From Epinephelus fuscoguttatus (taxonomy: Eukaryota > Chordata > Actinopteri > Perciformes > Serranidae), in NCBI RefSeq assembly GCF_011397635.1, contig NC_064770.1, forward strand, positions 19,809,707-19,873,706: a DNA stretch of 64,000 nt. Direction: 5' to 3'. The notes under the pieces were generated by a model. It was not told the DNA's origin. It did not search any database and saw only the letters and a program-made list of their open reading frames with translations. Position numbers and translations under genes: made by a program. Below are positions 16,809 through 43,034 of the stretch, piece after piece (the first letter of the stretch is position 1; each line of letters begins with the position of its first letter).

Positions 16809-19800
16809 CTACCAGGGGACAGTATCGCCCTTGTAATCCAGGAAGGCTCCGTTCTTCTTCTCAGTCAGGGAGGCCATCACACTAAGCATCCCCTGCACAC
16901 TCTCCGGAGCATCAATCTCCCCCTGGTGGTCAGAAACACACAGTGTACATGAAGGCTGGCAAAGGAGGTCAATTCTCCTCACTCTTAGTTAAGAGTCTAA
17001 TGTTTCTACCAACAGACCAGTTGTAGACTTGACAGCATTTTTGAATGTCTACAGAAGCTCAGAGAGACAAGTGTGGAAAAAAAAATTTAATAATGGTGAT
17101 CCATTTTCTAAGTCTGATCTAAATGGTTTTCTCTCTCATTCAAGCAGATCCTTTGGTCTCTAATGATTGGCTAGGGAAAATCGAATCCCCTCTCCCACAG
17201 AAATCAGTTAAAATGGACGCAATATCACACTGATGGGAAGGGAGTGAAACAAGTTGACAATTCTGTCTGATACCAGGCAATTTAAGTTTTCCTTTTGGCT
17301 AAAGAAGCCAATGCTAATGGCAGATTAGCGGCAATTAAAATACATTTCCTCATCACATTGTTATTACCTAATTATATTACATACTGTAAATACATGTCTC
17401 TGCAAAATAATACAACTAGGCTTGCAAAATGCTGATACATAGCTACACCTGGATTCTCCTCTAATACCCCTTATTTCACCTTAGCGTTATGCTAATGATA
17501 TGGAGAGCTCTACCTTGCAGTTTGATGGGATTTGTTCCTTAAATTAGTGATCTAACTTCTGCCAGCCGAGCAGCTCACTTCAGCTTTAGCACTCTGCTAA
17601 CTTGAATGTAGATTAAAATGGTATACTGGTACATATTAACTGATTTGTTAACATTTCTTTCTTAATTTAAGTTAATGGGACAAAGTCATTTGGGCCCCAT
17701 GGCATCACGTGATGGACCTGGAAATTGTAATTCCACTGGGGGCTTGGTCTGAATCTGTAGCCCCTTTTACAAAGAGATCACACTATAGAGCCGCTACAAA
17801 GTTGCTTATTCATGCTGCCTTTGTGTATTTACTCAGCACCAAAGAGGGTGGCTTAGTGTGCATTTTAGGTAACATGCTGGCATGGACAAATCAATAGAGG
17901 CATGACAGGTGAGACATGTACGATAACAGTGTTGGTCTCTAATGTAGTGCATTGGCAGTGCTTTCCAAACAATGACAATGGCATAAAATGGCTATACCAA
18001 TCATTTACCATCCCTGTTATATGGCAGCTGGTCTTGTCCTCTACTCAGAGCGTAAGGAGTTCCAAGACCTCATTGTTTTCCTAATTTGCAGACATTTTCA
18101 TCTGCTGTTCTTTGAGTTAGTCGCTAACTGCTATCAGCTACTTTTTATATCCACTGCAGTGGCATAACACGTCACCAAAATGTCACACTCCTGCTGCCCA
18201 TGATTCCGTCCTGCCAGCTGTCCTGATACAGAAGTCATTTCAGCGCTGTTACTACTTCTCTTCCCAGGTCAGAGGCGAGACTGCGATTATACCTTTTATG
18301 CAGAACAGTGAGGCAGAGTAACAGCGTGAAACCCCTGCCTTAAGAAGCAGTGTAAAAGGGGCTTGTGTGACTGCAGTTTCAAGGGGGAAATGCTCATGGC
18401 CTTGACAGCTTATTTCAATCATGCTTGTAGCATATAAAAAACACCACAAGGACATTTTCACAAAATTAAAGTCTTGATTCTCATTGGAGGGCGTCTTTAA
18501 TAAAGTAAACTATGATTCAGAGTGGACTGGTTCCTCTACATTGTTTGATTGTTTCCCGTATATGAAATCTGCTGACTCACATCCTTTCCACCCATGTCGG
18601 TGCGCACCCAGCCAGGGTGCAGCAGAGAAAACAGGATCTCATCCTTCTGCAGCTCCTCTGCAGCACACAGTGTCAGCATGTTCAAACTTGCCTGAGAGGA
18701 GAAGAGAGAGAGGAAAAGTAATGGACAGACAGAGCAACTAGGTGATAGGTGATTGAACTTTTCCACTTAACAAATGTAAGATGAGACCTTCGAGTAGCAG
18801 GTCACAGTGTTATCAGGTTGTCACTCACCTTGCTGATGCGGTAGGCGACAGCAGGGAAACTAACGTATGAGTGTTTTACAAATTCCATTGAACCCAAAGT
18901 TGAGCTGATGTTGACGACGGCTGCTTTGCTGGTGGACATCCCTGACATCCCACTGGCCTTCGCTGCTGCACGAAGATGAGGCAGGAACTCCTAATGACAA
19001 CCACCAGAAAGAGAATCAACAAGAGGAAACTTTCATTGTACACCATTAAAGTTCTGTGTTTGTGGTTGTCCTGTTTCTCACTTTAAGGATGTACATAGGG
19101 CCCATGACGTTGGTGTTGAAGGAACTCTGCATGTCCTCGGTTGTAGTTTCCTGTAGGGTAGCTTTGGCGAGGATGCCTGCGTTGTTAATCAGCAGGTTCA
19201 GACCACCCGTCCCCACCAGAGAGCCCACCTGCTGGGCACACTGTTTAATGCTACAAAGGTCACTGGCGTCTGACAGAGAGAGAAAGAAAGTGGAACATCA
19301 GCGGTGGTCAGTAGCAGACAGTCAGATAAATATCAGAGCTCTGCACTGTTCATAGAGTCGAGGCCTGGACATGGAAACAGGATGAGAGAGCTTGTACCCA
19401 GACGGATGATGGAGATGATGTCAGGATGCTTCTTTGCCAGTGTTTGTAAGGCCTGTTAATATACAGAGAAGACATGTTTGTAATTCAGCAAAGAATCCCA
19501 CACACTGTTGATCACTTGTGCTCATTTTTATCAAGTGGTAGAGAGTTACCAAGTACATGTTAATTAACGTATTGTACAGTTTGAAGATACTTGCACTTTA
19601 CTTGGGTATTTCCTCTTTATACTTATGCTCCACTACATGTTGGAGGCAAATATTGTACTTTTTACTACATTGCAGATTTAGATTATCAATAGAAAATATA
19701 AATCAGGTAATGCATTATGATGCATATCATTATAGGTTAAACTACCAAGCACTATATAAAGTAGTTAAATCCCCCCTTTACCTGCTGCAACTTAAAATGA

Positions 19801-22800
19801 TGAAAACATTAATGCATCACTAGTCATAATCCAGTAACATATGTTTCTAAAATGGGCCATTCTACATAAGTAGAGTGTTTTACTGTTGGTAGATTAAATG
19901 TGTAGCCAGGGATTCTTGAGAAAGACTACTGATATTTGAACTCACCCAAAAAAATACACCCCTCCCATCAGCGCATGAGCATATGCCAGATTTACCTTAC
20001 CTCTCATTACCACTGCCTAAATGGCCTCTCTCCTGTCCTGTTTACTGATGTTAATCTTATCAGCCATTTCATTATTTAGTTTCAGACCCGTGTGACATGA
20101 CATTGTTAGTTTGACTACAATTTAGGGCATTCACAACTTTACTTAAAGATATACTATGCAGGATTTTCCTACAAAACAATGTAGACTCATACAGAAGTAA
20201 TCCCTCTTAATCAGTGGTGCTCCCAGATTTTATTTTATTTTTTTTTTTACAATGGTGGTCCAGTGAGGCCATTGAAAATCTTGAGGTGGAATTTCAGGAA
20301 TTTCATTATGCTGTTAAAGTCTAGTTGAAAACTATGCAGTATGAGAGTTGAGGCATTCATTTGAAAGAGCACATTGCCTGTAAGGACCAAGACACTTATG
20401 GGAACAAGCCTCCTCAAGTTGAAGGTAGGGATGCACAATATTGGATTTTTTGACGATATCTGATATGCAGACATGTAAAAACTCATTTGACTGATAACTG
20501 ATACCGATATCGATAAATCCCAGTTTAGTACGTCATCAAAATGAGAGAAAAAAAGTCATAGTATAGTATGTCGTCAAAATGTGATGAAAAAAGTCATAGT
20601 GTAGTATGTCGTCCAAAATCATGTAAAAAAAGTCATAGTATAATATGTTGTCCAAAATCACGTAAAAATGTCATAGTGTAGTATGTCGTCCAAAATAATT
20701 TATAAAAGTCATATTATAGTATGTTGTCCAAAATTCTGAAAAAAAGTTGTAGTATAGTATGTCGTCCAAAATAATTTACAAAAGACATGGTATAGTATGT
20801 CGTCCAAAATCATGAGAAAAAAGTCATAGTATAGTATGTCATCCAAAATGATGAAAAAAAGTCATAGTATAGTATGCCATCCAAAATCATGAAAAAAAAT
20901 TCATAGTATAGTATGTCGTCCAAAATCATGAAAAAAAAGTCATAGTGTAGTATGTTGTTCACAATCATGAAAAGAAGTTATAGTATAGTATGTCGTCCAA
21001 AATCATGAAAAAAAAGTTATAGTATAGTATGTTGTCCAAAATCATGAAAAAAGTCATAGTATAGTATGTTGACCCAAAACAGGAAAAAGTCATACTATAG
21101 TATGTCGTCCAAAATCACAAAATAAAACTCATAGTATAGTATGTCGTCCACAATCTTTTTTTTTTCTTGTTTTACTTTTTATTAGTTTTGTGTTAACAAG
21201 TACACATCATACATTCACAAAATAACTAAAACCAACACACCTCTAGGTGAGAGGGTTCTCTACACAGTTGATGTGGATTTAATTTGAATGTATATAATGG
21301 CTTGCTGTTCACAATCATGAAAAAAACTCATAGTATAGTGTGTCGTCCAAAATCATGAAAAAAACTCATAGTATAGTATGTTGTCCAAAGTCATGAAAAA
21401 AGGTCATAGTATAGTATGTCATCCAAAATCATGAAAAAAGTCATACTATAGTATGTCGTCCAAAATCACAAAATAAAACTCATAGTATAGTATGTCGTCC
21501 ACAATCTTTTTTTTTTTCTTGTTTTACTTTTTATTAGTTTTGTGTTAACAAGTACACATCATACATTCACAAAATAACTAAAACCAACACACCTCTAGGT
21601 GAGAGGGTTCTCTACACAGTTGATGTGGATTTAATTTGAATGTATATAATGGTTGCTGTTCACAATCATGAAAAAAACTCATAGTATAGTGTGTCGTCCA
21701 AAATCATGAAAAAAACTCATAGTATAGTATGTTGTCCAAAATCATGAAAAAAGGTCATAGTATGTTGTCCAAAATCATGAAAAAAGTCATAGTATAGTAT
21801 GTCGTCCAAAATCATGAAAAAAGTCATAGTATAGTATGTTGTCCAAAATCATGAAAAAAGGTCATAGTATAGTATGTCGTCCAAAATCATGAAAAAAGTC
21901 ATAGTATAGTATGTTGTCCAAAATCATGAAAAAAGTCCTAGTATAGTATGTTGTCCAAAATCATGAAAAAAGTCATAGTATAGTATGTTGTCCAAAATCA
22001 TGAAAAAAGGTCATAGTATGTTGTCCAAAATCATGAAAAAAGTCATAGTATAGTATGTCGTCCAAAATCATGAAAAAAGTCATAGTATGTCGTCCAAAAT
22101 CATGAAAAAAGTCATAGTATAGTATGTTGTCCAAAATCATGAAAAAAGGTCATAGTATGTTGTCCAAAATCATGAAAAAAGTCATAGTATAGTATGTCGT
22201 CCAAAATCATGAAAAAAGTCATAGTATGTTGTCCAAAATCATGAAAAAAGTCATAGTATAGTATGTTGTCCAAAATCATGAAAAAAGGTCATAGTATGTT
22301 GTCCAAAATCATGAAAAAAGTCATAGTATAGTATGTCGTCCAAAATCATGAAAAAAGTCATAGTATAGTATGTTGTCCAAAATCATGAAAAAAGGTCATA
22401 GTATGTTGTCCAAAATCATGAAAAAAGTCATAGTATAGTATGTCGTCCAAAATCATGAAAAAAGTCATAGTATAGTATGTTGTCCAAAATCATGAAAAAA
22501 GGTCATAGTATAGTATGTTGTCCAAAATCATGAAAAAAAGTCATAGTATGTTGTCCAAAATCATGAAAAAAGTCATAGTATAGTATGTCGTCCAAAATCA
22601 TGAAAAAAGTCCTAGTATAGTATGTTGTCCAAAATCATGAAAAAAGGTCATAGTATGTTGTCCAAAATCATGAAAAAAGTCATAGTATAGTATGTCGTCC
22701 AAAATCATGAAAAAAATTCATAGTATAGTATGTCGTCCAAAATCATGAAAAGCATCATAGTATGTCGTCCAAAATCATGAAAAAAAAGTCATAGTATAGT

Positions 22801-25800
22801 ATGTCGTCCAAAATCATGAAAAAAAAGTCATAGTATAGTATGTTGTCCAAAATCATGAAAAAAAAGTCATAGTATAATTAAAAAAACTAATAGTATAGTA
22901 TGTTGTCCAAAATCATGAAAAAAGGTCATAGTATGTTGTCCAAAATCATGAAAAAAGTCATAGTATAGTATGTCGTCCAAAATCATGAAAAAAGTCATAG
23001 TATAGTATGTTGTCCAAAATCATGAAAAAAGGTCATAGTATAGTATGTTGTCCAAAATCATGAAAAAAGTCATAGTATAGTATGTTGTCCAAAATCATGA
23101 AAAAAGTCCTAGTATAGTATGTTGTCCAAAATCATGAAAAAAGTCATAGTATAGTATGTTGTCCAAAATCATGAAAAAAGGTCATAGTATGTTGTCCAAA
23201 ATCATGAAAAAAGTCATAGTATAGTATGTTGTCCAAAATCATGAAAAAAGTCATAGTATGTCGTCCAAAATCATGAAAAAAGTCATAGTATAGTATGTTG
23301 TCCAAAATCATGAAAAAAGGTCATAGTATGTTGTCCAAAATCATGAAAAAAGTCATAGTATAGTATGTCGTCCAAAATCATGAAAAAAGTCATAGTATGT
23401 CGTCCAAAATCATGAAAAAAGTCATAGTATAGTATGTTAAAATCATCAGAAAAGGTCATAGTATGTTGTCCAAAATCATGAAAAATTTGTATATCTCATC
23501 CAAAATCATGAAAAAAGTCATAGTATAGTATGTTGTCCATGATGTCATATGTTGTAACTGGTGAATAGCAACAATGTTGTCCAAAATCATGAAAAATAGT
23601 ATAGTATGCTATAGTATTTGTCCAAAATCATGAAAAATGAACTATAGTATGTTGTCCAAAATCATGAAAGGGCATAGTATAGTATGTTTTCCAAAATGAA
23701 ATACTAATGACGTCAGATTATATAGTCATTGTCCAAAATCATGAAAAAATCAAATTCCTTCCAAAATCATGAAAAATCGCCTTCAAAAGTATAGTATGTC
23801 CAAAATCATGAAAAAGTCATAGTATAGTCGCAAAATCATGAAAAAGTCATAGTATACAGTATGTCTAAAATCATGAAAAAGTCATAGCTATAGTATGCAC
23901 TGTCAAAATCAGTGGTCAAATATTACTGTTGGTTCCATTGACTAAATATGCGCTAGAACGCGTCAAACTGTTCAGAATGGTATCATTACTGGTCACTGGC
24001 ATACTTTCTTCTCATTATCGTACAGTCATAGTGATTAAACAGTGGATTAGTCAGTCAGCGTCCAAAGCTGTCAATGGGGAACTAGAGTGAGGATAAATGC
24101 GATGCAGCTAAAGATCCTACAGACCACATTAACGATGCTATCGAGGTATTTCGCCACTACTCGCGTTAATGGAGGACCAAATTAAGGAAGCTGCTAAACT
24201 GGATTTAACGGCGATGCAGCTGGGCGTGCACGACGACGGAGACATTTTAAACGGGCAATGCTCGCTTGTTTTCGGCACCCCCGAGGCATGGATACTAATG
24301 ACGTCAGATTATGGGTGAGTCATTGATCTCTACTGATTGGTTAGGGAAAAATCAAATTCCTTCCCCCTTGTAAATCGCCTTCAATGTTAGCCATGTCAGA
24401 CTGAAGGTTCTGGGAGCTTCAGTCCGGCACTCAGGCTATCATAGTATACAGTGGCGATTGCTCTAAAACTGCAAGGGAAGCTCAGCTTCCCTTGCACTGT
24501 CAAAAAAATAAGTGGTCAAATATGTACTGTTGTGTTTACATTTCATTGACTAAATATGCGCTAGAACGCGTCAAACTTTTGTTCAGAATCAGTAATTATC
24601 ACAGGTCACTGACGCGACTTTCTTCTCATTCATTCCCGTACAGTCATAGTGCATTAAACAGTGGAAGCTCAGCGTCCAAAGACTTCAATGGGGAAGCATA
24701 GAGTGGGTTGTTCCACTGCAGCGAAACTAGACAGTCATTGGATAAATGCTCGGTTTTGTCCCGCCCATCGGACGCTCAGCGTCTCTGGGGGTCTATGGGG
24801 CAGACTTTTCTAATCCTATAGTGACTTTTTCTTTGTTAAAAACGACTAGCGACAAATCTAGCATCTTTTTCTGGTGTTATTGGAGACTGTACTCGTGTTT
24901 GGAGACTCTGACTTCTGTCGCTCTGCAGCTACTGTCCCCGACGAGCAGCAGGTGTTGCTGTGAACCGCTCCACCATCCCAAAGCACTCACAGGTGGTCAC
25001 ACTAGCCTTGCACAGCAGCCCCAGAGGGTAGAATTTACGTATAAATAAACAGACACATTTTGTGATGAAGGCCAAAAATGACCTTCCCCTCCTTGAAAGA
25101 CCAGCAGCCGCCACTGATAGTATAGTATGTTGCCCAAAATCATGAAAAAAGTCATATTATAGTATGTTGTCCAAAAACAGGAAAAAAAAGTCATAGTGTA
25201 GTATGTGGTCCAAAATAATTTATAAAAGTCATATTATTGTATGTTGTCCAAAATCATGAAAAAAGTCATAGTGTAGTATGTCATCCAAAATAATTTATAA
25301 AAGTCATAGTATAGTATGTTGTCCAAAATTATGAAAAAAAAGTCATAGTGTAGTATGTCATCCAAAATAATTTATAAAAGTCATATTGTAGTATGTTGTC
25401 CAAAATTATGAAAAAAAAGTCATAGTGTAGTATGTCATCCAAAATAATTTATAAAAGTCATAGTATAGTATGTTGCCCAAAATTATGAAAAAAAGTCATA
25501 GTGTAGTATGTCATCCAAAATAATTTATAAAAGTCATATTGTAGTATGTTGTCCAAAATTATGAAAAAAAAGTCATAGTGTAGTATGTCATCCAAAATAA
25601 TTTATAAAAGTCATATTGTAGTATGTTGTCCAAAATTATGAAAAAAAAGTCATAGTATAGTATGTCGTCCAAAACCATGAAAAAAAGTCATAGTGTAGTA
25701 TGTCGTCCAAAATAATTTATAAAAGACATAGTATAGTATGTTGTCCAAAACCATGAAAAAAAGTCATAGTGTAGTATGTCGTCCAAAATAATTTATAAAA

Positions 25801-27845
25801 GTCATAGTATAGTATGTCGTCCAAAATAATTTATAAAAGTTATAGTATAGTATGTTGTCCAAAATCATGAGAAAAAAGTCACAGTATAGTATGTCATCCA
25901 AAATAATTTATAAAAGACATAGTATAGTATGTTGTCCAAAATCATGAGAAAAAAGTCACAGTATAGTATGTCATCCAAAATAATTTATAAAAGACATAGT
26001 ATAGTATGTCGTCCAAAATCATGAGAAAAAAGTCACAGTATAGTATGTCATCCAAAATAATTTATAAAAGACATAGTATAGTATGTTGTCCAAAATCATG
26101 AGAAAAAAGTCATAGTATAGCATGTTGTCAAAAAAGCATGAAAAAAAGTCATAGTATAGCATGTTGTCAAAAAAGCATGAAAAAAAGTCATAGTATAGTA
26201 TGTTATCCAAATGTGATGAAAAAAAGTCATAGTATAGTATGTCGTCCAAAATCATGAAAAAAAGTCATAGTGTAGTATGTCGTCCAAAATAATTTATAAA
26301 AGACATAGTATAGTATGTTGTCCAAAACCATGAAAAAAAGTCATAGTGTAGTATGTCGTCCAAAATAATTTATAAAAGACATAGTATAGTATGTTGTCCA
26401 AAACCATGAAAAAAAGTCATAGTGTAGTATGTCGTCCAAAATAATTTATAAAAGTCATAGTATAGTATGTCGTCCAAAATAATTTATAAAAGTTATAGTA
26501 CAGTATGTTGTCCAAAATCATGAGAAAAAAGTCACAGTATAGTATGTCATCCAAAATAATTTATAAAAGACATAGTATAGTATGTTGTCCAAAATCATGA
26601 GAAAAAAGTCACAGTATAGTATGTTATCCAAAATAATTTATAAAAGACATAGTATAGTATGTCGTCCAAAATCATGAGAAAAAAGTCACAGTATAGTATG
26701 TCATCCAAAATAATTTATAAAAGACATAGTATAGTATGTTGTCCAAAATCATGAGAAAAAAGTCATAGTATAGTATGTTATCCAAATGTGATGAAAAATA
26801 TCACAGTATAGTATGTCGTCCAACATGTGATTAAAAAAAAAAAAGTGCATGCATGCATACTCTTATCGTGATGGCCCACCAGCAGATGGAGACATTAAAC
26901 ACAAAGCTTTCAGAGTATGTAACATTCATTCCTTATGCAAAATAAGAAAAAGCATGTTGGCTCTTTCTGATAGTTCATTTTAAAGCCAATATTGGCTAAT
27001 ACGGATACTCTTTGGTACCCATACAACACATTTTCATTCAGATATCTTGAGGTGAGAGTTAAAGGGACCCTTTGTAAAAGGCCATGTTGTTACCTCGCCA
27101 AAATTTAGCCAAACTTTGGGGCATTGTTTAGTTCTCTTACCAACAAGTTATGCCAGTATGGTACCAACGGATGCCTCAGGTTGTCCGTTTAGTAAGATAT
27201 CATGACCTTTGTGCTAGCTCCACCCTGGGAGTGTCATTGTTTTCATTCATCACTGATCGCCCGTTAGGGGTGTGTGGCTGTGCTATTTTCTGCACAGACT
27301 GTCTTCTGCCTGTATTTTCTTATTTTCTGTGTTTGGGATGTTTATAGGCGTGTACCCCCACCCTGCTCAGGTGAGGTTGGGGCTTTATAAAAAGGCAGCA
27401 TCCAGGTGTGAGACTGTAAGCAGCAGGCAGCATCCAAGAACCACAGATGAAATGTCAAACAAGAGTGGATTTAGGGTTGGCTTTAACGTAAACTTTTTGC
27501 TTAACTGGCAATCCTGCAGAGTATTGACCAGTTTAAGTAGTTTATCAGGTATTGCTACGTTTTAAAGGAGAACTATCTGAATACTTTCCCCACCACTGCC
27601 TTTACCTGTGCAGGGTTTCAATCACTGCAACTTTTTGGTGTTGTCTGTTCTGTTATTTGTTGAAGACTTCAATGAGCCACAGAGGAAGTACAGAATCTCA
27701 CCTCAGCCCTGGGTCCATCTGGGTCCCTGCAACAGGCAAACAGCTTTCTCAATGGACGGGGGGACTCCACCATTTGCTTAACCATCTCCAGGCCCAGGCC
27801 TCTGTTTGCTCCTGTGATAAGCACGCTGACTGGTTTAGCCGCCAT
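16809..27845 (-). CDS. SDR1: short-chain dehydrogenase/reductase, C-factor/sniffer-like (complete)
   Basis: Minus-strand exons 27702-27845, 19398-19452, 19082-19269, 18829-18990, 18581-18691 and 16809-16922 join in phase to 257 residues, the usual length for classical SDRs. The Rossmann motif is TGANRGLG (residues 11-18), followed by NNAG (95-98), the catalytic Asn in NTNVMG (N120), Ser159 in NISS and the YRISK pair Tyr179/Lys183. The family reduces carbonyl substrates with NAD(P)H in the cytosol; the substrate is unknown. Vertebrate relatives are annotated as C-factor-like or carbonyl reductase sniffer-like. Intron 1 is about 8.2 kb, swollen by the minisatellite, against 1.7 and 1.0 kb in the sister genes. 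All splice sites fit consensus and no stop is seen, so it looks functional. Confidence 0.9.
16923..18580 (-). other. Intron 5 of SDR1
   Basis: This 1.66-kb intron contains no exon I can support. A stretch near 17150-17200 (TCTCTAATGATTGGCTAGGG) resembles one at about 24325-24365, so it includes a dispersed repeat. Short open frames at 17.7-18.5 kb have no domain. Confidence 0.5.
20430..20520. repeat. Left remnant of a dispersed element flanking the minisatellite
   Basis: Sequence around AGGGATGCACAATATTGGAT and the GATAACTGATACCGATATCG tract resembles an interspersed repeat seen in many fish. A candidate right-hand counterpart (AGCCAATATTGGCTAATACG) lies at about 26980-27040, just past the minisatellite. 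Confidence 0.45.
20521..23690. repeat. 37-bp minisatellite, left array
   Basis: Tandem units read approximately AGTCATAGTATAGTATGT, then YGTCCAAAATCATGAAAAA, about 37 bp in total. A 5-bp-shorter variant (GGTCATAGTATGTTG) recurs every few units and creates a higher-order period. Units before about 20800 are more divergent; from 21.7 to 23.4 kb they are nearly identical. It lies within SDR1 intron 1. Translated frames are repeat artefacts. Confidence 0.95.
21153..21657. repeat. Duplicated 150-bp insert within the minisatellite
   Basis: A non-satellite segment beginning TTTTTTTTCTTGTTTTAC and ending near GAATGTATATAATGG occurs at about 21155-21303 and again at about 21507-21657. The copies are virtually identical and about 353 bp apart, so insert and surrounding satellite units were duplicated together. 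Confidence 0.9.
23690..24105. other. Scrambled stretch: satellite units interleaved with hAT-flank sequence
   Basis: Between 23700 and 23800 pieces of the clean sequence at 24292-24385 (ATACTAATGACGTCAGATTA, AAATCAAATTCCTT, AAATCGCCTTCA) are interrupted by fragments of the 37-bp satellite unit. From 23895 to 24105 a gapped, shortened version of 24495-24740 follows, for example GACTAAATATGCGCTAGAAC shared with the clean copy. This looks like a faulty consensus or a mis-joined haplotype rather than biology. Confidence 0.7.
24148..24318 (+). pseudogene. RecQ-like helicase fragment
   Basis: A short open stretch reads SPLLALMEDQIKEAAKL, then TAMQLGV, then SLVFGTPEAW, and stops at 24316-24318. SPL.ALM.DQ is the motif Ia region of RecQ-family DNA helicases. 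Only about 55 residues remain, with no Walker A or DExH box, so this is a dead piece. Dispersed RecQ-like pieces are known in fish genomes. It adjoins the scrambled block, so its left border is unreliable. Confidence 0.5.
24449..25116. mobile_element. Non-autonomous hAT element with perfect 8-bp TSD
   Basis: The ends are CAGTGGCG at 24449-24456 and CGCCACTG at 25109-25116. The flanks are identical: ATAGTATA at 24441-24448 and at 25117-25124. An 8-bp duplication with CAGTGG-type termini is diagnostic of the hAT superfamily. It is 668 bp long with no transposase frame. The duplicated target is part of the minisatellite unit, so it inserted into the array. Confidence 0.9.
25117..26835. repeat. 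37-bp minisatellite, right array (dimeric form)
   Basis: Here units alternate between an AATTTATAAAAG-ending type and an ATCATGAGAAAAAAG-ending type, giving a basic dimer of about 74 bp. A larger block is repeated at a spacing of about 653 bp (25741 and 26394 begin the same run). The array is clearly related to the left one but has a distinct higher-order structure. It ends near a poly-A and an ATGCATGCAT motif. Confidence 0.92.
26836..27701 (-). other. SDR1 intron 1, exon-1-proximal part
   Basis: No gene seen. Parts match intron 1 of SDR2 and SDR3, for example the AGGGACCCTTTG and GCCAGTATGGTACC neighbourhoods against about 35860-36290 and 42430-42840, which shows the shared ancestry of the three loci. 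Confidence 0.5.
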
Positions 27846-27895
27846 TTCCTCTGCCTCAGTTTACACAATTCTCTGTGTGCTGAGCTCTCTGAGCT

Positions 27896-27903
27896 CTTAT
27901 ATA
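27896..27903 (-). promoter_or_regulatory. TATA box of SDR1
   Basis: The minus strand reads TATATAAG 51 bp upstream of the ATG at 27845, which predicts a short 5' UTR of about 20-25 nt. TATATATG occupies the matching place in SDR2 and SDR3. Confidence 0.65.
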
Positions 27904-28654
27904 AGCCTCAGTGCTTTTAGCCTGGCCACTCCCACGTTCTCATGTGGCAGTTTGTTTAGGATATCCCATCCTCTGCTTCTTTGCTCCACCTCAATAAATG
28001 TGCAAGTCACTGTGATAAGTCAGGCATGTGCAGAATTTAGCACACATGCTGAGAGAATGTAGTGTTGCCAGAAATGAAAGATAACAAACATACTAAAATA
28101 TATGGTCATAACATCGAAATATACTAGATGAAAAGAGGGAGTGTAGTTGCTTTTTAAAGCTCCAAGAACAAGAGTGCAAAGCAACTCTCACACAGTGAAG
28201 GACTTCCTGATGACAAACACAAAAGAAACTGTCTAGTGAGCTGACTTCTAGTCAAAGACACAACTTAACCAACAGTTTGCACATGCTGAGTCATGTTAGA
28301 CTTTGATCTTTGTAACACATTGATGGGGAACTTGAGCGCATTTGCAAACCAGATGAACTGTCTTATGCAAACAGTGCAAAGATTAGCCTAAGACAACCTT
28401 GCCTTTGGCTCAATTTATTAACTATATTGAAATAACACAACATATACTCAAAACTGACTGGACTTTCCCTGGGCAGGTGTGGACTAGTCACACACCAGCT
28501 GACATTGCACAATATGATAACTACACGAATATAGGGCACATGCTATGCTACAATAAAAAAGCAACAATACACCACACAATGGGGGTGGGGTGGGGTGAAC
28601 TAACAGCCAGTGTCATCTTTCTGACCCACAAAGCCCTCTATAGAAGCAGGGAAA

Positions 28655-28980: not shown

Positions 28981-28989
28981 AAACTAGCC

Positions 28990-29273: not shown

Positions 29274-29279
29274 AGAGCC

Positions 29280-30530: not shown

Positions 30531-30537
30531 TAAACGG

Positions 30538-30824: not shown

Positions 30825-30829
30825 ATGAG

Positions 30830-31470
30830 CACACGTTTGATAAAACGGAGTTAAATCTCTCAGCATCCATTTTCAAGCTCTCTGTGTGTTTGTTTCCTTG
30901 CTGACGAGAAAAGGGGGAGCGCACATTTCCGAGAAGGCGTGTCCTTTTCAATAATGCAAGAGGCGTTGCTTTGTTGCCGGCTGTTTTCGCCGGTATGTTA
31001 AACACACTTTAGAAAGGAGTGTCCCCAGACTATCAGAAGGCGGAGATCTCTGATTGTCTGGTGGTGGGACTAGAGATTACCTTACCTGCCTGAGGCAGGG
31101 AGGATAAAACAAACACGCCTGGCAGGAAAGCATCCACCTTTGTCAGGCGCAAACTCTTTTGTAGACAAGAGGCTATTTACAGCCTTCTTCTGTTTGTTCA
31201 TTCTTTGTACAGTAGCCATGATTTGTACGTCCTGTAACTTACTTTCCTTTAATACCTAATTTATCTTATTATCGCATAGTGTTTGTTGTTTTGGTTGTTT
31301 TGTTTTTTTTTTAAATAAGTTTGCTTTGTCATTGCAGAGCTATAACCACACACACTTATCTACCCTGCCTTTGAAATAAAACTGCTCTGCTCTCAGTGGA
31401 ACCTGCTGCCTGCTTCCCCTTCTGTACTCATATCAATTGGGTCAACGCTAGTGTTTCTCCTATGACCAGC
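30830..31470. other. Unclassified spacer with an AATAAA motif
   Basis: The sequence contains GGATAAAACAAACACG near 31100 and AATAAAACTGCTCTGC near 31376. No gene or complete element boundaries can be proven. Confidence 0.35.
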
Positions 31471-31479
31471 AATTATTCT

Positions 31480-31705
31480 GGCGACTGGGTTGCCTCTCAC
31501 CCTCTCCATGACGGGCTGTGGCAGATGAGCAGCTCATTCAGTCACCAGATCATCCAAACCAGATAGTTCTGTTCTTATTTTAGTTTTATACACCTCTTCT
31601 TTGTTTTTGTTTTGTATACCTCTATTCATTTGTACTTATTTCTTTCCTTGTGTTGCTGCAACAAATTTCTCCTCTGGCAATCAGTAAAAGCTTATCTCAA
31701 ATTTT
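31480..31705 (+). mobile_element. LINE 3' region, CR1/L2 type
   Basis: Contains TTGCCTCTCACCCTCTCCAT and, at the end, a CCTCTGGCAATCAGTAAAAG stretch typical of fish CR1/L2-clade 3' UTRs. Related copies lie at about 37610-37870 and 45870-46060, in equivalent positions upstream of SDR2 and SDR3. Confidence 0.65.
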
Positions 31706-31879
31706 ATGTTTTTTGTTTTTATGTTATTTTGCAGTGCTGTGTGGTATCTCGTGAGCCTGGGGACATTTCAGAAGATGAATTAGAGCCATTTAGTGTGAAT
31801 CATACACAGCGTCGATGCATCCAAAGCAAAAATAGCTCGGGAACGTGAGCTTGGCAGACCACACAAAAGACACACTGTG

Positions 31880-32850
31880 TCAGGCAATCAAGTGATCCAT
31901 TTAGAAATAAAAAAAAGTAATGTGACTTCTTTGATGTCAAGTAGTTTACATGTACTTATAAACCACTACAGTCATTTACATATGACTACAATTATGAATC
32001 TATTGAGTCAAAGAGAATCTGGTTATCACTGCACAAATTGACAGCAGAACAGCAATAAAGCAATGACAAGCTATAATGACTTACTTTAATATGTACATAT
32101 TTTCATCTGTTATAATGGCACTAAAGCTACAGCAGTGGTGTCGACAGGGATGCAGGTTGGCATTCCCACCACATGGCTGCACCGTTTCTTTGTGAAACAG
32201 CACATTCAGGATTTCTGAGAAAGGATTTACAGAAGCTTGCAAATCCTTGGTAAACAAACAGTATAAATGTCCACCCTGACAAGTAATGTACTTTAATACA
32301 GTAGATTAAACTCTCAGGTTTCTTAAAAAAAGTGTATAGTATAGTATAATACATCAGGCTGATAAACAAGCAGGATGAGTATACTCTACTGGCACATTTT
32401 CATTTGTTTTTTGGAAGAAATTCACTTTTTTCTGACAGAAAAACAAATTATATCATAAATTTAATTCTTAATTAGCAAACTAATTACTTTGTTAAAGTGG
32501 ATATTTATTATGCAATAAATACAGCAACTAAACTAAGCACAAAAAGTAAGGAATTTTGTATTTGGTAGATTATTTCTTTGTTGTAACAATGCTTCGTGGC
32601 AATAAATCTTATGCCGTTGGAAAGCCTGTTTATTTCCCTTTTGAATGGTGCCACGTTTGTAAGGAACATGCATTTGTGGGATGAGCAGCAGAGCTGAGTA
32701 TGAGGGTTGCTCCCATGAAAAATTTACCAAATCTTCTCTGCCAATGGCAAACAGCTTTTTTTTTGGCTGTTGGAATTGACTCTTATTTTGAGCTTCTGGT
32801 ACCTCCAGGTGCTGACAATCAGGTGCCTGAAGAAGACGTGTATCAAATCA
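31880..32850. repeat. Upstream block of duplication unit 1
   Basis: From about 31920 to 32530 this segment matches 46240-46860 nearly base for base (for example GTAGTTTACATGTACTTA and CAGTGGTGTCGACAGGGATG). Its last part matches 37990-38160 and 46680-46860. No gene is visible. The unit 1/unit 2 junction is close to 32853. Confidence 0.75.
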
Positions 32851-32969
32851 TGTAAGTGCTTGTTTGTGTGTAAAATGAGATACAAGCAACACAGTTAAAA
32901 CAAATAATGGTTTATTTCACATGGGTTCATTTAGTGATTGACATCATTATATGAAGCAGTTCTTTAAAG

Positions 32970-35900
32970 CTACCAGGGTACGGTATCACCCTTATAATCC
33001 AGGTAGGCTCCGTTATGCTCCTCAGTCAGGGAGGCCATCACACGAAACATCCCTTGCACACTCTCCGGAGGATCAATCTCGGCCTGGTGATCAGAAACAC
33101 ACAGTTAACATGAAGGCTGGCAAAGGAGGTCAGTTCTCCTTACTCTTAAGTAAAGAGTCTGATGTTTCTACCAACAGACCAGTTGTAGACTCTAAATTTG
33201 TGAATGTCAGTGGAAGCCCTGAGACTGAAGCCTGTTTCAGTTGTTACCTGACACGCTTAGGCCTCCATAGTCAATATGTGGAACAGTTGATAGTCAGTTT
33301 CTGTACCCTTACGTTCACTTTTGGGGGTACCTCACCTATAAAGGGGTGTCTCCCACCTTACCTCTCCCCTTTTGCTACTGTGCTCATGCACTACCACTAC
33401 AACACTATGTTTGGCCACATGTAAAATTGGCTTCAAAGTCCAACACTCTTCCTGGGATTTGTCTGAACCGGTGTTTTTCCCAAGGCAGAAATGCTCAGCC
33501 ATGGAGATGGTGCTTATTTCACAATGATATATCTTGTAGTATATAATAAAAACACACATAAGGACATGTTTAACAAGTTTAAAATCTTGATTTTCATTTG
33601 AGGGCATTTTTCATCAAACAAGCTATCAATCAGAGCTGACTTAATCCTTTATAGATGTATGAAACCTGCTGACTCACGTCCTTTCCACCCATGTCGGTGC
33701 GTACCCAGCCAGGGAGCAGCAGAGAAAACAGGATCTCATCCTTCTTTAGCTCCTCTGCAGCACACAGTGTCAGCATGTGCATACCTGCCTGAGAGGAGAA
33801 GAGAAGAGAAAGAAGAAAAGGAACGGACAGACAGAGCAATTAGGGTGATTGAACATTTCCTCTTAGCAAATGTAAGATAAAACCTTTGAGTAGCAGGTCA
33901 CAGTGTTAGCAGGTTGTCACTCACCTTGCTGATGCGGTAGGAGATGGCAGGGAAGGTAGCATAGTGCGGTTTAACCTTTTCCATTGAAGCCAAATAGGAG
34001 GCGAGGTTTATGACGGCTGCTTTGCTGGTGGACATCCCTGACATCCCACTGGCCTTCGCTGCTGCACGAAGATGAGGCAGGAACTCCTAATGACAACCAC
34101 CAGAAAGAGAGTCAACAAGAGGAAACTTTCAGTGTACACCATTAAAGTTCTGTGTTTGTGGTTATCCTCTCTCTCACTCTTATGATGTTCATGGGGCCCA
34201 TGACGTTGGTGTTGAAAGAATTCTGCACGTCCTCGGGAGGGGTTTGCTCCAGAGTGCCGTTGACCAGGATGCCTGCGTTGTTAATCAGCAGGTTCAGACC
34301 ACCCGTCCCCACCAGAGAGCCCACCTGCTGGGCACACTGTTTAATGCTACAAAGGTCACTGGCGTCTGACAGAGAGAGAAAGAAAGTGGAACATCAGCGG
34401 TGGTCAGTAGCAGACAGTCAGATAAATATCAGAGCTCTGCACTGTTCATAGAGTCGAGGCCTGGACATGGAAACAGGATGAGAGAGCTTGTACCCAGACG
34501 GATGATGGAGATGATGTCAGGATGCTTCTTTGCCAGTGTTTGTAAGGCCTGTTAATATACAGAGAAGACATGTTTGTAATTCAGCAAAGAATCCCACACA
34601 CTGTTGATCACTTGTGCTCATTTTTTATCCAGTGGTGGAGAGTTACCAAGTTTAAATAAAGTACTGTACAATTTTATAATACTTGCACTGATCACGTGAT
34701 TCCTTTCTATGCAACCAACTGGCGAATCTCATTCAGGGAGCCCTATTTAAACTGCTCTGGCCTGCCTACTGTTGCTGCTTTCTCTGCAAGCTGCTTTGCA
34801 ACCTGCCTCCACCCCAGCTCCTCCTTTTCATGCCGTGTCTGACGTATCAGTGTCATTATTGTTTGTCACTGATGCTGCTCTGCTCTGTTCCCGGGAGTCT
34901 TTGCTGCTGCTCTCCCTGTCTTAGGCTTTCCATGGAGGCACATGGAAGGGCAGGAAGGTTTGCTCATTTGCACGTAGAAGGGCAGACAGGTGTGCACTCT
35001 CTGCCTCAGGCTTTCTACCTAAGCACGCAGAGAGGTGTGCTCTTTCCACCTTATGCTTTCCACATAGGCACGTGGGAGAGGCTTTCTGCGTAGACCTGAG
35101 GAACAGCGGAGGGGCCCCAGAACAGAGCCATACCGCCAAATATAACACTGTGCCAAATATAATATTGCAAATGTAAATAAAGTTTTCTTTGACAAAAGTG
35201 TTCTTTTTTTCATAGGGGTGGCCAGATGGGATCATTGAAAATCTTGAGGTCCTCAATCCATAAAAGTCCCACCCCAAATCCGCTCACTTACCAGCTCTGT
35301 TGGCCTGTGCATCGGGGCCTAGCCACTCATGGGAGCAGCACTATTGCAGAGGCGGTACTACGCAATTGGACAATGGAAATTTTTTTTTAAAAAAGGACGC
35401 CGATAAGGATGAGCGCCCCCTCCCCTGGGTCTAGTGGTTTGCTGACCATAATATCAGCTTCCTTCCCTCATTCCCAACAAAATGACCAGCTAACATAACA
35501 CTACCAACATTTACTAACAAACACAAGAGGGCAGACACTGGTTATCAGGGTGGACAAAGCCCCTCCTAAGGGTCTGGGTGTTGTCCACCTCTTACCTGCC
35601 TCCACTTCACCATTGGCCCCAAGGGTCACATGTATTACAATTGACATCGGATTGTCTATTGCTGCATCGCTGCCTCCTGTCTTTAGTGTGTTGCTCTCCC
35701 TGATCTCCTGTTACCTATACAACCTCCTCCACCCGTACCCCAATTTCAGCATTTCAGTTACGCTGTTGAAGTATATAGGCAGGCTGAAAACGAGGAACAA
35801 GCCTTCTGAAGTCTCAGGGAGACTTGTTGGTATCCAGAGAGCACATTTCTATTCAAGGGACCCTTTGAAAATTGCTGTATTGTTCCTTTTCCAAAGTTTA

Positions 35901-36436
35901 GCCTACCTTTGGAGCATTATTAGCCCCGTTACCGACAAGCTATGCCAACAAATAGGGTCACAGCCTCTTACACAGCAATGTTAGCCTTTATTTTCTTATT
36001 TTCTGAGTCAGGGATATTTATGTACATCTATACCCACAGCACTCAGGTAAATGATTCTGGGGTTGGCTTCATCTTCTTTAATTTGTGCTCGCCAACATTA
36101 TTATATAAACAGAAACCAGTAATCCTTTCAAGTATTGCTACTTTTAAAGGAGAACTACCTTCTTCCAGTACTGCGTTTGTCTGTGCAGGATTCTTGCTTC
36201 TTTTCAATCAATGCAACTTTTTGGATTGCGACAAGATTTTTTTGTTGTTGTTGAAGATGTCAGTGGGCCACAGACAAAGTAAAGACTCTTACCTCAGCCC
36301 TGGGTCCATCTGGGTCTCTGCAACAGGCAAACAGCTTTCGCACTGGATGGGGCGCCTCCACCATTTGCTTAACCATCTCCAGCCCCAGGCCTCTGTTGGC
36401 TCCTGTGATAAGCACGCTGACTGGATGAGCTGCCAT
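32970..36436 (-). CDS. SDR2: short-chain dehydrogenase/reductase, C-factor/sniffer-like (complete)
   Basis: Minus-strand exons 36293-36436, 34494-34548, 34178-34365, 33925-34086, 33678-33788 and 32970-33083 encode 257 residues with exon lengths identical to SDR1. TGANRGLG, NNAG and YRISK are intact. The first Ser of the NISS motif is Ala here (NLAS), but the second, the catalytic Ser159, is kept. It differs from SDR1 mainly at residues 100-129 (GILVNGTLEQTPPEDVQ) and 157-178. The activity is probably a cytosolic NAD(P)H carbonyl reductase of unknown substrate. A TATA-like box lies at 36480-36487 and AATAAA at 32911-32916. Intron 1 (34549-36292) carries an unrelated repeat at about 34670-35200. 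No defect is visible. Confidence 0.9.
34670..35215 (+). repeat. Dispersed repeat in SDR2 intron 1
   Basis: The end of this segment (CAGAACAGAGCCATAC, then AATAAAGTTTTCTTTGAC) recurs in reverse orientation at about 49005-49240. It is absent from SDR1 and SDR3 intron 1, so it inserted after or during duplication. It contains CTTTCCATGGAGGCACATGG-like internal near-repeats. The family is not identified. Confidence 0.6.
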
Positions 36437-36479
36437 TTTCCTCTGCCTCAGTTTGCACTTTCCTCTGTCTCTCTGGGCT

Positions 36480-36487
36480 CATATATA
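36480..36487 (-). promoter_or_regulatory. TATA-like box of SDR2
   Basis: TATATATG on the minus strand, 44 bp upstream of the ATG at 36436. It is conserved with SDR3. Confidence 0.6.
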
Positions 36488-36789
36488 CACCTTGGTGGAA
36501 TGCCTACAGCTTGGCCACTCCTACTTTCTCATGTGTCCATGTGTTTTTGACCGTCTGTCCGTCCATCCTCCATTCCACCTTAAAAAATTGTGCAAGCCCC
36601 TGTAATAAGTCAGGTAAGTGTGAACTTAGCGCACATGCTAAGAGTATGTAGTCTTTGATGATGAGATGACATGATGAGTTATGTTAGATTGTGATGTTAT
36701 GACATAACACAGCTGAGGCAACACACTGATTATTGTGGGGAATTTGAGCCCACCCACCAACAAGGTATACTGTTATATGGAAACAGTAT

Positions 36790-37430
36790 ATAATAAGTGT
36801 CTATTTAAGTGTATAATCACTTGAAAACAATTGTTGTGTTTTTGTTATCTTAGAATGAGCCACTTATATCTGTATAGGGAACGGCAAAACCAAACACTGC
36901 TAGGGCCATTTGAATTTTGGCATCTGCCACCATAGTTAGCAGTCTCTCTGCGACAAGAGCTTCCCTTTTTTTTTTTTTTTTTTTTTTTTTACGAAAAACT
37001 GCTTTATTTGGTGTTTTTGCCAGTTTAAATTACTGGTTGTGCTTGTTTTGGAGAGGAGGAGACCTCTGTGAATAATTTGGCTCCTGCTAAAATCCTCCTG
37101 AAAATCTGCATCAAAGTTAAAAGTAAAAAAGGTTGGCACACATCAGTAGGTGCTGGGCTAACAGCCCGTAATTAACATGCCAAAAGGCAAAGGAGAAACA
37201 CTGATACCTGACACGAAACTACTTTATTCAGTGGTTTTAATGGTTTAAATCACCTCGTCTGTCCTGTTCTAGAGAGGAAGAGACCTCTGAAGAAAATTAG
37301 GCTCCCAGTAAAAACCTCCTGAGCAATCAACACTAAAGGAATCCTTGCCAAGGAGAAGTTTCAGCTGGTTGCAATCCATCATCTTCACCGATAGACACCA
37401 CTAAGTCTGCCTACATCTTCAAACTTTTAC
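36790..37430 (+). mobile_element. TTAA-type MITE, copy D, with internal duplication
   Basis: Matches copy A (CACCATAGTTAGCAG, CTGCTTTATT, GTTTCAGCTGGTTGCAATCC). The 3' half occurs twice in tandem, the same internal duplication as in copy E upstream of SDR3. This shows that units 2 and 3 share a closer ancestor. A poly-T run interrupts it at about 36968-36990. Confidence 0.75.
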
Positions 37431-37609
37431 TTTCAGCCAAAACATGATATTATCCTGACCCTAACCAAGTGTTTTTGTCCCTAAACCCACACATTAAACA
37501 CAGCTTTGTCACAACATGAAATTGAAAACTGAAATGTAAAGAAAAAACATCTGCTACACATGGAATGTTCAAATGTAGTTATATCTGTAGTTCGCAGATA
37601 AGTACAATA

Positions 37610-37870
37610 CGAACAATTCTGCCAACTGGGTTGCCTCTCACCCTTTCCATGACGGGCTGTGGCAGATGAGCAGTTCATTCAGATTCAAAATGTGGAGACC
37701 ACAGACTATGTTTTGCGCTTGTATAGTTCTGTTCTTATTTAGTTTTATACACCTCTTATTTGTTTTTTACTTTCTCTATTTAACTATACTTATTTCTATC
37801 CTTGTTCTGTTGCAACAACCAAATTTCCCCTCTGGGGATCAGTAAAGGCTTATCTCAAATTTTATGTTAT
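37610..37870 (+). mobile_element. LINE 3' region, CR1/L2 type (unit 2 copy)
   Basis: Contains TTGCCTCTCACCCTTTCCAT and the terminal CCCCTCTGGGGATCAGTAAA, as in the copies near 31480 and 45870. Confidence 0.65.
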
Positions 37871-38505
37871 GTTGCAATGGTGTGTGCTATCTCAGTAGAT
37901 GACTTTGAGCCATTTAGCGTGAGTCATACACAGCACTGATGCACTGAAAGCAAATCAAGCTCAGGAAGATGAGCTTGGCAGACCACAGACCTTATCAGAT
38001 CAGGCTGATAAACAAGCAGGAATCTACTGGCACATTTTCATTTGTTTTTTGGAAGAAATTCAATTTTTTTCCTGACAGAAAACTAAATTATATCACAAAT
38101 GTAATTGTTAATTAGCAAACTAATTACTTAATAAAGTAGATATTTAGTATGCAATAAATACAGCAACTATTTAAAGCTGCAAAGCTGATAAATCGACTTC
38201 AAAACGGAGAGCTGAATCAACACCTCTCTGACACTCTCTCAAAAATGTTACACTATAAGCTTCGCAAAGGCAGTATTTATTGCAGGGCTACTGGACTGGA
38301 TGGCATTATGATATTATGATATATGCTCCTGTAAATTTGTCCATTCCCCTGCATCTTTAACATGCATGTCAGGAGAGGCAAGTTGGTGACAGGACGGCTC
38401 ACACTGACGACAGGCAGACAATTAACCCAGGAACCAGTCTGCTCTGATAGAACTCGTATAACTGAAGACAGAAACTGAAACTGACACTGACACTGAGTAG
38501 GCACA
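37870..38505. repeat. Upstream block of duplication unit 2
   Basis: The segment around 38160-38400 (AATCGACTTCAAAACGGAGA, GGGCTACTGGACTGGATGGC) is repeated at about 46865-47085. No gene is present. Confidence 0.7.
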
Positions 38506-39065
38506 TCAGAAGTGTGTCTTGAATTTTGAGAGGATTTAATTCCCTGTTTTGTTTTTTGTCACTGCCTACTCCTGGTTGTCGCTCTCCACAGACCTGACCT
38601 GTGTCACCAATAGTGCGTGTAGAAGTTCCCAGACAATCTAGGCTAGGCTTTACATCAGGCAGCCACACCTGGGAGGTAGAGGTGGGCGACAAGGCGGACT
38701 GGATGCGTGGGGTGGTCAAGGAGTTGATTGACAGGAAAGGCTGCATATCAGGCTGCCCTGAGGGCGGGTTTCGGATGATCTTGCACTAGGAGAGCGAGTA
38801 CTCGGCCATGACTAGGCCCAGCACCCTGCTGCATCCACAGCGAGAGCTGACCCAAGTCAGGGTGCAGCTGGACTACGATTCTGGGGAGGTAACCTTTTCC
38901 AACCCCATCAGCATGATGCCCATCTACACCTTCACCAATGTCTTCACTGAGAGTATGTATCCTTTCTTCTGCCCTGGAGCCAACATCAATGGCAATAACC
39001 TCAACCCACTTAAGATCTGTGTGGAACAGCCACAGATAAGTGGTATAAAAACACCTCACAGAGGA
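38505..39065 (+). pseudogene. Broken copy of the TRIM PRY-SPRY exon
   Basis: This matches the last TRIM exon (16068-16627) and its upstream intron, sharing CACTGCCTACTCCTGGTTGT and GAGGTAGAGGTGGGCGACAA. The exon start with its acceptor is missing, internal segments are deleted (the region before GGCTTTACATCAGGC), and an in-frame TAG replaces a Tyr codon near 38787. The last residues are lost too. No RING, B-box or coiled-coil exons accompany it, so it is a passenger of the SDR duplication, tail-to-tail with SDR3 as TRIM is with SDR1. Confidence 0.9.
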
Positions 39066-39234
39066 TGAAACATCAATTTATACTCAATTTATACTCTTTC
39101 AGAAGAGTATATCAAAACATTTAAGTGCATGTTTGTGTGTAAAATGAGATACAAGCAACATAATTAAAACAAATAATGGTTTATTTCACATGGGTTCATT
39201 TAGTGATTGACATCATTTTATGAATCAGTTAAAG

Positions 39235-42200
39235 CTACCAGGGTATGGTATTGCCCTTATAATCCAGGAAGGCTCCATTATGCTCCTCAGTCAGGGAGGC
39301 CATCACACGAAACATCCCCTGCACACTCTCCGGAGGATCAATCTCCCCCTGGTGGTCAGAAACACACAGTTAACATGAAGGCTGGCAAAGGAGGTCGATT
39401 CCCCTCACTCTTAGTTAAGAGTCTAATGTTTCTACCAACAGACCGGTTGTAGACTCTAAATTTTTGATTGTCAATGGAGGCCCTGAGTGGCAAATGTGGA
39501 AAAAAAATCGCTGAGCCATTTTCTAAGTCAAATTTCTCTCTGTTTTGAGGGGGCAGAGATACAGGCTGTCTGCCCCATTCATTACTATGAAAATCACTCA
39601 GTGATGCATGAAGCCTAAAAATTAAATCTACACAAATCTTCTGCAACATGGAGCTCACAGAGTTAGCATACTAGGGACTGTGTTCCATTCAAGTTGGAAG
39701 TCGGAGGTCAAGGCTGGGAATGATGTCACACTTGAGTTGACTGTGTTCCAGTAAGTCAGAAGAAGATGTTGTTGACAATGCCAGTTCCAAAGAGGTTAGC
39801 CAGTGTCAGCAATACCAGCTGATAACAAGGCTTTACACTGTATTTTACACATACATACACTGGAGAAACATCTCCATGTATAGAAGTTGGACAGGACTGT
39901 GTGTGTGACTGTTTTAATGAGACACAAATAAGACAGAAGTGCTAACAAACAGTATATTACTACAACTTTAATGACTGTTGATGCGCAAAGCAGACATACT
40001 GGATTTTGAGGTCAGGGTCTCTCTGACTTTCTGACTCGGAAATCTGACTTCACTTGGGCATTCCAGTTGAAATTTCTGACTGGGAACATAAAAATTGCAA
40101 CTGCCCAGTGCAAATGAAACGCACCATCACGTTAGCCAAGTGACTAGCTTCCAGTTTAGCCCTCTGCTAACTTAAATGCCATGGAGATGACTGCTTATTT
40201 CACTCATGATATACAGCTGCTGGGAAACTGGTGCTGGGAAACTGCTGGGTTCTGGCATTCATGTGGATACCACTTGACATGTTCCACCCTCTCAAACACC
40301 GTTGCAGACCAAGTGCCCCCCCTCATGGCAGCCACACTCCCCAATGGCAGTGGTCCCTCAGCAGAAAAAAAGCAGCATGTCACACTACAAAAACTGTTTA
40401 GAAATTGCCGGTGGAGTGTGACAAAAAGCTAAAGGTGTCGACCTGACTTCTAAATTTCCCAGGTCCCAATCTGCTCAAGGATTCTTGTGATGTACCGGTA
40501 TCCCAGATGTACAGCTAATCTAAGGTGGGGCCTCCTTGGATTGTACTTGGCTCTGACCTGTCGAGGCATGGACACAGGATCTCTGGAACTGTCCTGTGGT
40601 TCTGGTTAATAGCACATGCCACAGATGCTCATTCAGATTGGGATCTGGGGAATTTGGAGGCCAGGTTGACACTTTGAGGTTTTTGTCACATTCCTTGGGC
40701 CATTCCTGAGCGATGTTTGCAGTGCGGCATGGTGCTTTTTTCTGCCAGGGGGCCACTGCCATTGGGGAGTACTTGGTCTGCATTGGTGTTTGAGTGGGTG
40801 GAACATGTCAGGTGGTATCCACATGAACGCCAGAACCAAAGGTTTCCCAGCAGAACAATGCATTGGAACAAAATAATCAAAGTTATTCACTTCACCTGTC
40901 GGTGGTTTTAATGTTTTGGCTGATTGGTATCTTGTAGTATATAAAAAAACATGAACTATCAATCAGAGCTGACTTAATCCTTTATAGATTCATGTATGAA
41001 ACCTGCTGACTCACGTCCTTTCCACCCATGTCAGTGCGCACCCAGCCAGGGAGCAGCAGAGAAAACAGGATCTCATCCTTCTGCAGCTCCTCTGCAGCAC
41101 ACAGTGTCAGCATATGCAAACCTGCCTGAGAGGAGAAGAGAAAGAGGAAAAGTAATGGGCAGACAGAGCAACTAAATTGTCATGTGATTGAACATCTCCA
41201 CCTAACAAATGTAAGATGAGACCTTTGAGTAGCAGGTCACAGTGTTAGCAGGTTGTCACTCACCTTGCTGATGCGGTAGGCGACAGCAGGGAAGGTAGTA
41301 TATTGCCGTTTAACCTTTTCCATTGAAGCCAGATAGGAGGCGAGGTTTATGACGGCTGCTTTGCTGGTGGACATCCCTGACATCCCACTGGCCTTCGCTG
41401 CTGCACGAAGATGAGGCAGGAACTCCTAATGACAACCACCAGAAAGAGAGTCAACAAGAGGAAACTTTCAGTGTACACCATTAAAGTTCTGTGTTTAGGT
41501 TGTCCTCTCTCTCACTTTTATGATGTGCAAGGGGCCCATGACGTTGGTGTTGAAAGAATTCTGCATGTCCTCGGTAGTAGTTTGCTCTAGAGTGGCACTG
41601 ACCATGATGCCTGCGTTGTTAATCAGCAGGTTCAGACCACCCGTCCCCAACAGAGAGCCCACCTGCTGGGCACACTGTTTAATGCTACAAAGGTCACTGG
41701 CGTCTGACAGAGAGAGAAAGAAAGTGGAACATCAGCGGTGGTCAGTAGCAGACAGTCAGATAAATATCAGAGCTCTGCACTGTTCATAGAGTCGAGGCCT
41801 GGACATGGAAACAGGATGAGAGAGCTTGTACCCAGACGGATGATGGAGATGATGTCAGGATGCTTCTTTGCCAGTGTTTGTAAGGCCTGTTAATATACAG
41901 AGAAGACATGTTTGTAATTCAGCAAAGAATCCCACACACTGTTGATCACTTGTGCTCACTTTTTATCCAGTGGTGGAGAGTAAATAAGTATACATCTATT
42001 AAAGTATTGTACAGTTTGAAGATACTTGCACTTTACTAAGTATTTACATGTTTTAGACTATGTTATACTTCTGCTCCACTACATGTTAGAGGCAAATATT
42101 GTACCCATCCTACTTTTATTTAGATCATTAATACAAAATAAGCTGTAAATAAACTAATAATAAATAAATTATATATTCCATTATGATATATGGTGTTCAG

Positions 42201-42991: not shown

Positions 42992-43034
42992 TTTCCTCTG
43001 CCTCAGTTTGCACTTTCCTCTGTCTCTCTGGGCT

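Follow-up and report, generated by a model that had tools for sequence, protein, structure and literature searches.

Mosaic identity among three tandem short-chain dehydrogenase/reductase genes of Epinephelus fuscoguttatus, consistent with ectopic gene conversion

In the human red and green opsin genes, introns have been homogenised by gene conversion and a peak of exon divergence stands at functionally important residues; the Teshima–Innan model, as described in the part of the article that deals with these genes, has a peak of divergence under conversion (PMC3924837). The copepod Tigriopus californicus carries tightly linked enzyme paralogues, GOT1p1 and GOT1p2, with islands of exon divergence amid converted sequence, and the discussion of these loci weighs selection, suspected and unproven, against blocked conversion (PMC3728101). 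The present work concerns three short-chain dehydrogenase/reductase (SDR) genes, here called c1, c2 and c3, on the minus strand of a 64,000-nucleotide stretch of the genome of the fish E. fuscoguttatus (NCBI RefSeq assembly GCF_011397635.1, contig NC_064770.1, positions 19,809,707 to 19,873,706 of the forward strand). This whole stretch is called the window, and all coordinates are counted from its first letter.

Like the opsins, c1–c3 combine homogenised introns with a divergence peak in an exon; in the opsins, as far as that account goes, it is known which substitutions matter, how they affect colour sensitivity and what the orthologues are, whereas the SDR genes are a trio known from sequence alone. 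With GOT1p1/GOT1p2 they share the tight linkage of enzyme paralogues, the exon islands and the choice between selection and blocked conversion. The copepod case differs, in the form in which it is presented, in that it concerns coding sequence without introns and draws on several sampled populations. The pattern is thus already known from published cases and expected under published models; here it is clean and three-way. Among the papers listed by literature searches there was none on these three genes, which is no proof of absence.

Three SDR genes and the mosaic of identity between them

Each of the three genes has six exons and a predicted product of 257 amino acids; the reading frames and GT/AG splice sites, established by exon searches and translation, are all intact. 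The c1 and c2 proteins are 84% identical, and exon-by-exon tblastn searches found no fourth SDR copy within the window. The genes and the segments discussed below are as follows.

16812-27845, minus strand: SDR gene c1, exons 27702-27845, 19398-19452, 19082-19269, 18829-18990, 18581-18691 and 16812-16922
32973-36436, minus strand: SDR gene c2, exons 36293-36436, 34494-34548, 34178-34365, 33925-34086, 33678-33788 and 32973-33083
39238-42991, minus strand: SDR gene c3, exons 42848-42991, 41832-41886, 41516-41703, 41264-41425, 41015-41125 and 39238-39348
19170-19524, minus strand: tract A in c1, 355 base pairs (bp) identical to c2, one difference from c3
34266-34620, minus strand: tract A in c2, 355 bp identical to c1
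41606-41958, minus strand: tract A in c3, exact runs of 308 and 44 bp with one changed base
18916-19014, minus strand: tract B in c1, 99 bp shared without a difference by c1, c2 and c3
34012-34110, minus strand: tract B in c2, within an exact c2–c3 run at 33994-34157
41351-41449, minus strand: tract B in c3, within an exact c2–c3 run at 41333-41496
19068-19169, minus strand: island 1 in c1, residues 100-129 and the first bases of intron 3
18846-18915, minus strand: island 2 in c1, residues 155-178, containing the putative catalytic Ser159

The identity between the three genes is a mosaic that crosses exon–intron borders and has sharp edges. Tract A extends from the tail of intron 1 to the middle of exon 3, and its borders, the upstream one lying in intron 1, agree within 2 bp in all three pairs; the sole base changed in c3 replaces valine by leucine at residue 85. 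Tract B comprises the end of intron 3 and the start of exon 4. If two mismatches are allowed it reaches 152 bp in c1–c2 and 146 bp in c1–c3, while c2 and c3 are identical over 164 bp, so that its ends differ between c2–c3 and the pairs with c1. A preliminary description of this DNA had reported a near-perfect stretch of about 340 bp and another of about 150 bp at the start of exon 4 and intron 3; both were recovered, the former slightly longer and with its intron included, the latter as 99 bp exact and 146-164 bp by pair.

These runs were evaluated in the alignable region, which reaches from the tail of intron 1 just into intron 5 (c1 19597-18561) and contains, with gap runs collapsed, 105 variable events over 1030 sites. 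The longest invariant run, 308 bp, was reached in none of 100,000 permutations, in which the maximum was 157 bp. The second-longest, 99 bp, was likewise reached by no counterpart in 100,000 permutations; the third, 44 bp, was reached in 3,537 of 100,000 and hence is not unusual. A change-point fit (up to 9 segments of at least 15 sites each, chosen by the Bayesian information criterion) selected 6, 7 and 5 segments for c1–c2, c1–c3 and c2–c3, the order in which the pairs are given hereafter; tracts A and B are present in all pairs, and both islands are resolved in c1–c2 and c1–c3.

Inside the tracts, none of the 222 noncoding sites differs in any pair, whereas beside them 26/268, 28/278 and 27/268 do, about 10%. 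The contrast has a Fisher probability of about 1e-7 or less for each pair, to be read as post hoc because the tracts were delimited with the data already in view. Silent sites are equally uniform: among tract codons with the same residue there are no synonymous changes (0/74, 0/73 and 0/73).

Divergence takes other values elsewhere in the genes. In the two noncoding segments around exon 1, c1 differs from c2 at 50/206 and 23/86 sites and from c3 at 52/206 and 23/86, while c2 and c3 differ at 5/213 and 1/102; c1 is thus 24-27% divergent from the other two copies and these are 1-2% divergent from each other, a feature missing from the preliminary description. The c2–c3 likeness may reflect either a recent duplication followed by later imports or a further conversion tract. 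Around exon 1, 36063-36788 (c2) and 42618-43332 (c3) are 96.7% identical, more than in intron 4 or the tail of intron 1. In the exon 6 region all three pairs diverge by 4-9% in noncoding sequence and 7-13% within the exon. The mosaic thus has more than one scale, with old divergence near c1 exon 1, intermediate values from intron 4 onwards and zero in the tracts.

Divergent islands and the putative active site

The two divergent islands announced by the preliminary description are present, at residues 100-129 and 155-178 (157-178 in that description). In the fitted segments, island 1 differs at 24/102, 20/109 and 14/109 (12.8%) sites, and island 2 at 25/70 (c1–c2) and 23/57 (c1–c3). For c2–c3 no difference falls in the first 18 bp of island 2, which merge with tract B, the remainder falling within a segment of 7.9% divergence. 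Sites at which c1, c2 or c3 is the odd copy number 36, 12 and 6 in the islands and 9, 12 and 7 in intron 4 plus exon 5, a differing mix of patterns (P = 0.011).

Codons were divided into islands (54), exons 1, 5 and 6 (122) and tracts (76), with residues 179-183 outside all classes. The islands carry 24, 19 and 14 amino acid replacements, exons 1, 5 and 6 carry 16, 14 and 6, and the tracts 0, 1 and 1. Synonymous differences, counted in codons with an unchanged residue and excluding Met and Trp, amount to 10/27, 9/32 and 4/38 in the islands and to 13/97, 11/99 and 9/107 in exons 1, 5 and 6. Nei–Gojobori estimates for the islands, covering residues 98-129 and 155-183, give a synonymous divergence (dS) of 0.574, 0.424 and 0.133 and a non-synonymous divergence (dN) of 0.245, 0.218 and 0.106. 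The dN/dS ratio over both islands is 0.43, 0.51 and 0.79; for each island separately it ranges from 0.29 to 0.83 over the three pairs and never exceeds 1. In exons 1, 5 and 6, dS is 0.20 for the pairs with c1, and dN/dS is 0.17 for c2–c3. Because dS itself is raised in the pairs with c1 and dN/dS stays below 1, the islands separating c1 from c2 and c3 are best read as probable old divergence that escaped conversion, and not as new bursts of replacement alone. The islands of c2 and c3, with many replacements and ordinary synonymous change, provide the strongest hint of possible selection or relaxed constraint.

The three proteins are classical SDRs, predicted to be sniffer-type and carbonyl-reductase-like. 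Pfam PF00106 (adh_short) matches c1, the single copy scanned, with E = 1.2e-29, and the motifs TGxxxGxG, NNAG and Ser-Tyr-Lys are invariant across the three copies. The PDB, searched with c1 and c3, gave long matches of c1 to 3wxb (E = 3.7e-64, residues 7-257), to fly sniffer, 1sny (E = 1.2e-45, residues 7-257), and to the putative carbonyl reductase sniffer 1yo6 (E = 6.9e-37, residues 4-248), and the same top three for c3. The entry 3wxb carries only the label 'uncharacterized protein' in the match list; we take it to be chicken carbonyl reductase. The best 25 of 181 NCBIfam matches were to bacterial SDR models, below their own cut-offs. A scan of genome contigs with patterns from exon 1 only returned no fish relatives and five bacterial loci at 21-33% identity.

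The NNAG, NxxG and Ser-Tyr-Lys motifs of c1–c3 are presumed to have the roles usual in such enzymes. Island 1 starts two residues past NNAG and extends across the NxxG motif, whose asparagine (120) does not vary. Island 2 includes Ser159, and its final change falls one residue before Tyr179, which is followed by Lys183; all putative catalytic residues are the same in c1, c2 and c3. Judged by motif positions, the islands appear to flank the active site.

Both c2 and c3 have A158, Y160 and A162, and their alanines at 158 and 162 set them apart from 3wxb, 1sny and 1yo6, which have serine and glycine there; since all three structures agree in this, c1 probably keeps the older state at these positions. 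The polarity is weakened by a bacterial relative (L001, one of the five loci mentioned above), which, read by eye, also has alanine at position 162; the bacterial alignments 7xwl and 7xwh are gapped near the catalytic serine and were left unused for residues 158 and 162. In human CBR1 and CBR3 specificity is influenced by Met141 and Gln142 respectively, which stand two positions beyond the catalytic serine, according to the passages devoted to them (PMC2741203). Their counterpart by motif, residue 161, gives a change of specificity no support because it is leucine in all three copies.

Surroundings of the three genes

Much of intron 1 of c1 is taken up by two large minisatellites with a 37/38-bp unit, at 20547-23697 (about 85 copies) and 25117-26823 (about 45 copies); Tandem Repeats Finder, at a score of at least 150, found none in c2 or c3. 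A PRY/SPRY frame at 16106-16627 (plus strand) is convergent to c1 exon 6. Beside c3, at 38646-39020 (plus strand), lies a truncated PRY/SPRY copy with an in-frame stop and 85.6% identity, and none was found beside c2. The tail of a TRIM-like gene thus seems to have been part of the duplicated unit. At 11086-11709 (plus strand) lies a TRIM-like frame with RING and B-box, which may be the 5' portion of the gene ending in the SPRY frame at 16106. Elsewhere in the window, 5983-6357 (plus strand) matches a PDZ domain (E = 2.3e-06), and frames at 49974-54220 (minus strand) may correspond to parts of a KCNT1-type potassium channel; the two of these frames tried against Pfam gave no match.

Conversion, retention of the islands and alternative explanations

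Ectopic gene conversion between the tandem SDR copies, proposed in the preliminary description and suggested here by the mosaic itself, is well supported: in all three pairs introns are identical within tracts that have sharp limits, and differ by about 10% beyond them. Tandem sniffer-type carbonyl reductase copies would exchange sequence through ectopic recombination without crossover. At least two recent events would have homogenised tracts A and B, introns included; fewer would be needed if c2 and c3 descend from one already converted copy, which is possible because these two differ by so little around exon 1. Earlier or partial exchanges would have left the intermediate divergence of about 4-13% that begins in intron 4 and continues into the 3' flank, while the surroundings of c1 exon 1 would retain the oldest divergence and the two islands would be old paralogue divergence never overwritten. 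For this explanation as a whole, with tracts A and B recently homogenised by conversion and the islands left as they were, we estimate a probability of about 0.85.

Several points weigh against it. The synonymous excess of the islands over exons 1, 5 and 6 is modest, with Fisher probabilities of 0.010, 0.044 and 0.74 by codons and of 0.013, 0.068 and 1.0 by Nei–Gojobori sites. When two islands are placed at random in the region, 10,433 of 200,000 trials (5.2%) give a coding share no lower than that observed. How old the islands are and which way copying went is deduced from three sequences. Homogenisation during assembly also counts here: an assembly or polishing error that put one sequence in three places would produce near-perfect identity, but a single gap-fill would not be expected to give two short tracts set apart by sequence that is specific to each copy, nor the private c3 base inside tract A, and we consider such an error quite unlikely. 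Tracts maintained as constrained functional DNA, an intronic RNA or an enhancer, instead of by conversion would explain why the introns are identical. The absence of synonymous change would then demand that silent sites be constrained as well as introns, and in the window no Rfam family reaches its gathering score (18800-19650 has two matches, far below the cut-off), so that a known intronic RNA was rejected and constraint as such appears very improbable.

Other alternatives concern the islands. Their import by conversion from a more divergent paralogue elsewhere, in place of retention, would agree with an island dS above that of exons 1, 5 and 6 in the pairs with c1; against it, no additional copy was found in a search limited to the window, and we regard import as improbable. 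Recent positive selection, creating the islands after the full region had been homogenised, would account for the high density of replacements in every pair and for the contrast in c2–c3 between a dN/dS of 0.79 in the islands and 0.17 in exons 1, 5 and 6. New selection alone would not yield island dS values of 0.57 and 0.42 against 0.20, however, and with dN/dS below 1 for every pair and island we dropped it as the main maker of the islands, a role in which it is unlikely. The preliminary description had spoken of 'protected or positively selected islands'; protection fits the data, and positive selection does not follow from them.

Within the conversion explanation, there is about one chance in two that the islands survive through selection against copies that would erase a difference in substrate pocket separating c1 from c2/c3. 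A neutral variant competes only with this selective reason: conversion would have stopped at clustered mismatches and the islands would persist without selection on the enzyme, an argument like that discussed for the copepod genes in the part of the source that treats their islands (PMC3728101). The common upstream border of tract A, which lies in an intron with no protein to protect, and the 5.2% of random placements favour a mechanical contribution. The concentration of replacements next to the putative active site, including the neighbours of Ser159, favours selection: in c1–c2 they affect 24/54 island codons against 16/122 in exons 1, 5 and 6, in c1–c3 19 against 14, and in c2–c3 14 against 6 with no synonymous excess. 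The differing ends of tract B also speak against the neutral variant, which we hold to be a real possibility, short of an even chance. Selection against island conversion and conversion blocked by mismatches both fit.

In its fullest form, the selective interpretation is that the three copies may specialise in substrate and that selection may remove conversions crossing the islands while the rest is homogenised. In that case c1 would have kept the older serine–glycine loop next to the catalytic serine, and c2 and c3 would share the changed one (A158, Y160, A162), these two being distinct from each other at residues 169-178 and within island 1. We advance this tentatively, as a little less than an even proposition.

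The locus offers a compact example, with three copies, of gene conversion tracing out the region in which copies of an enzyme differ. Should orthologues share the islands, the divergent residues would be pointers to what determines substrate choice among sniffer-type carbonyl reductases.

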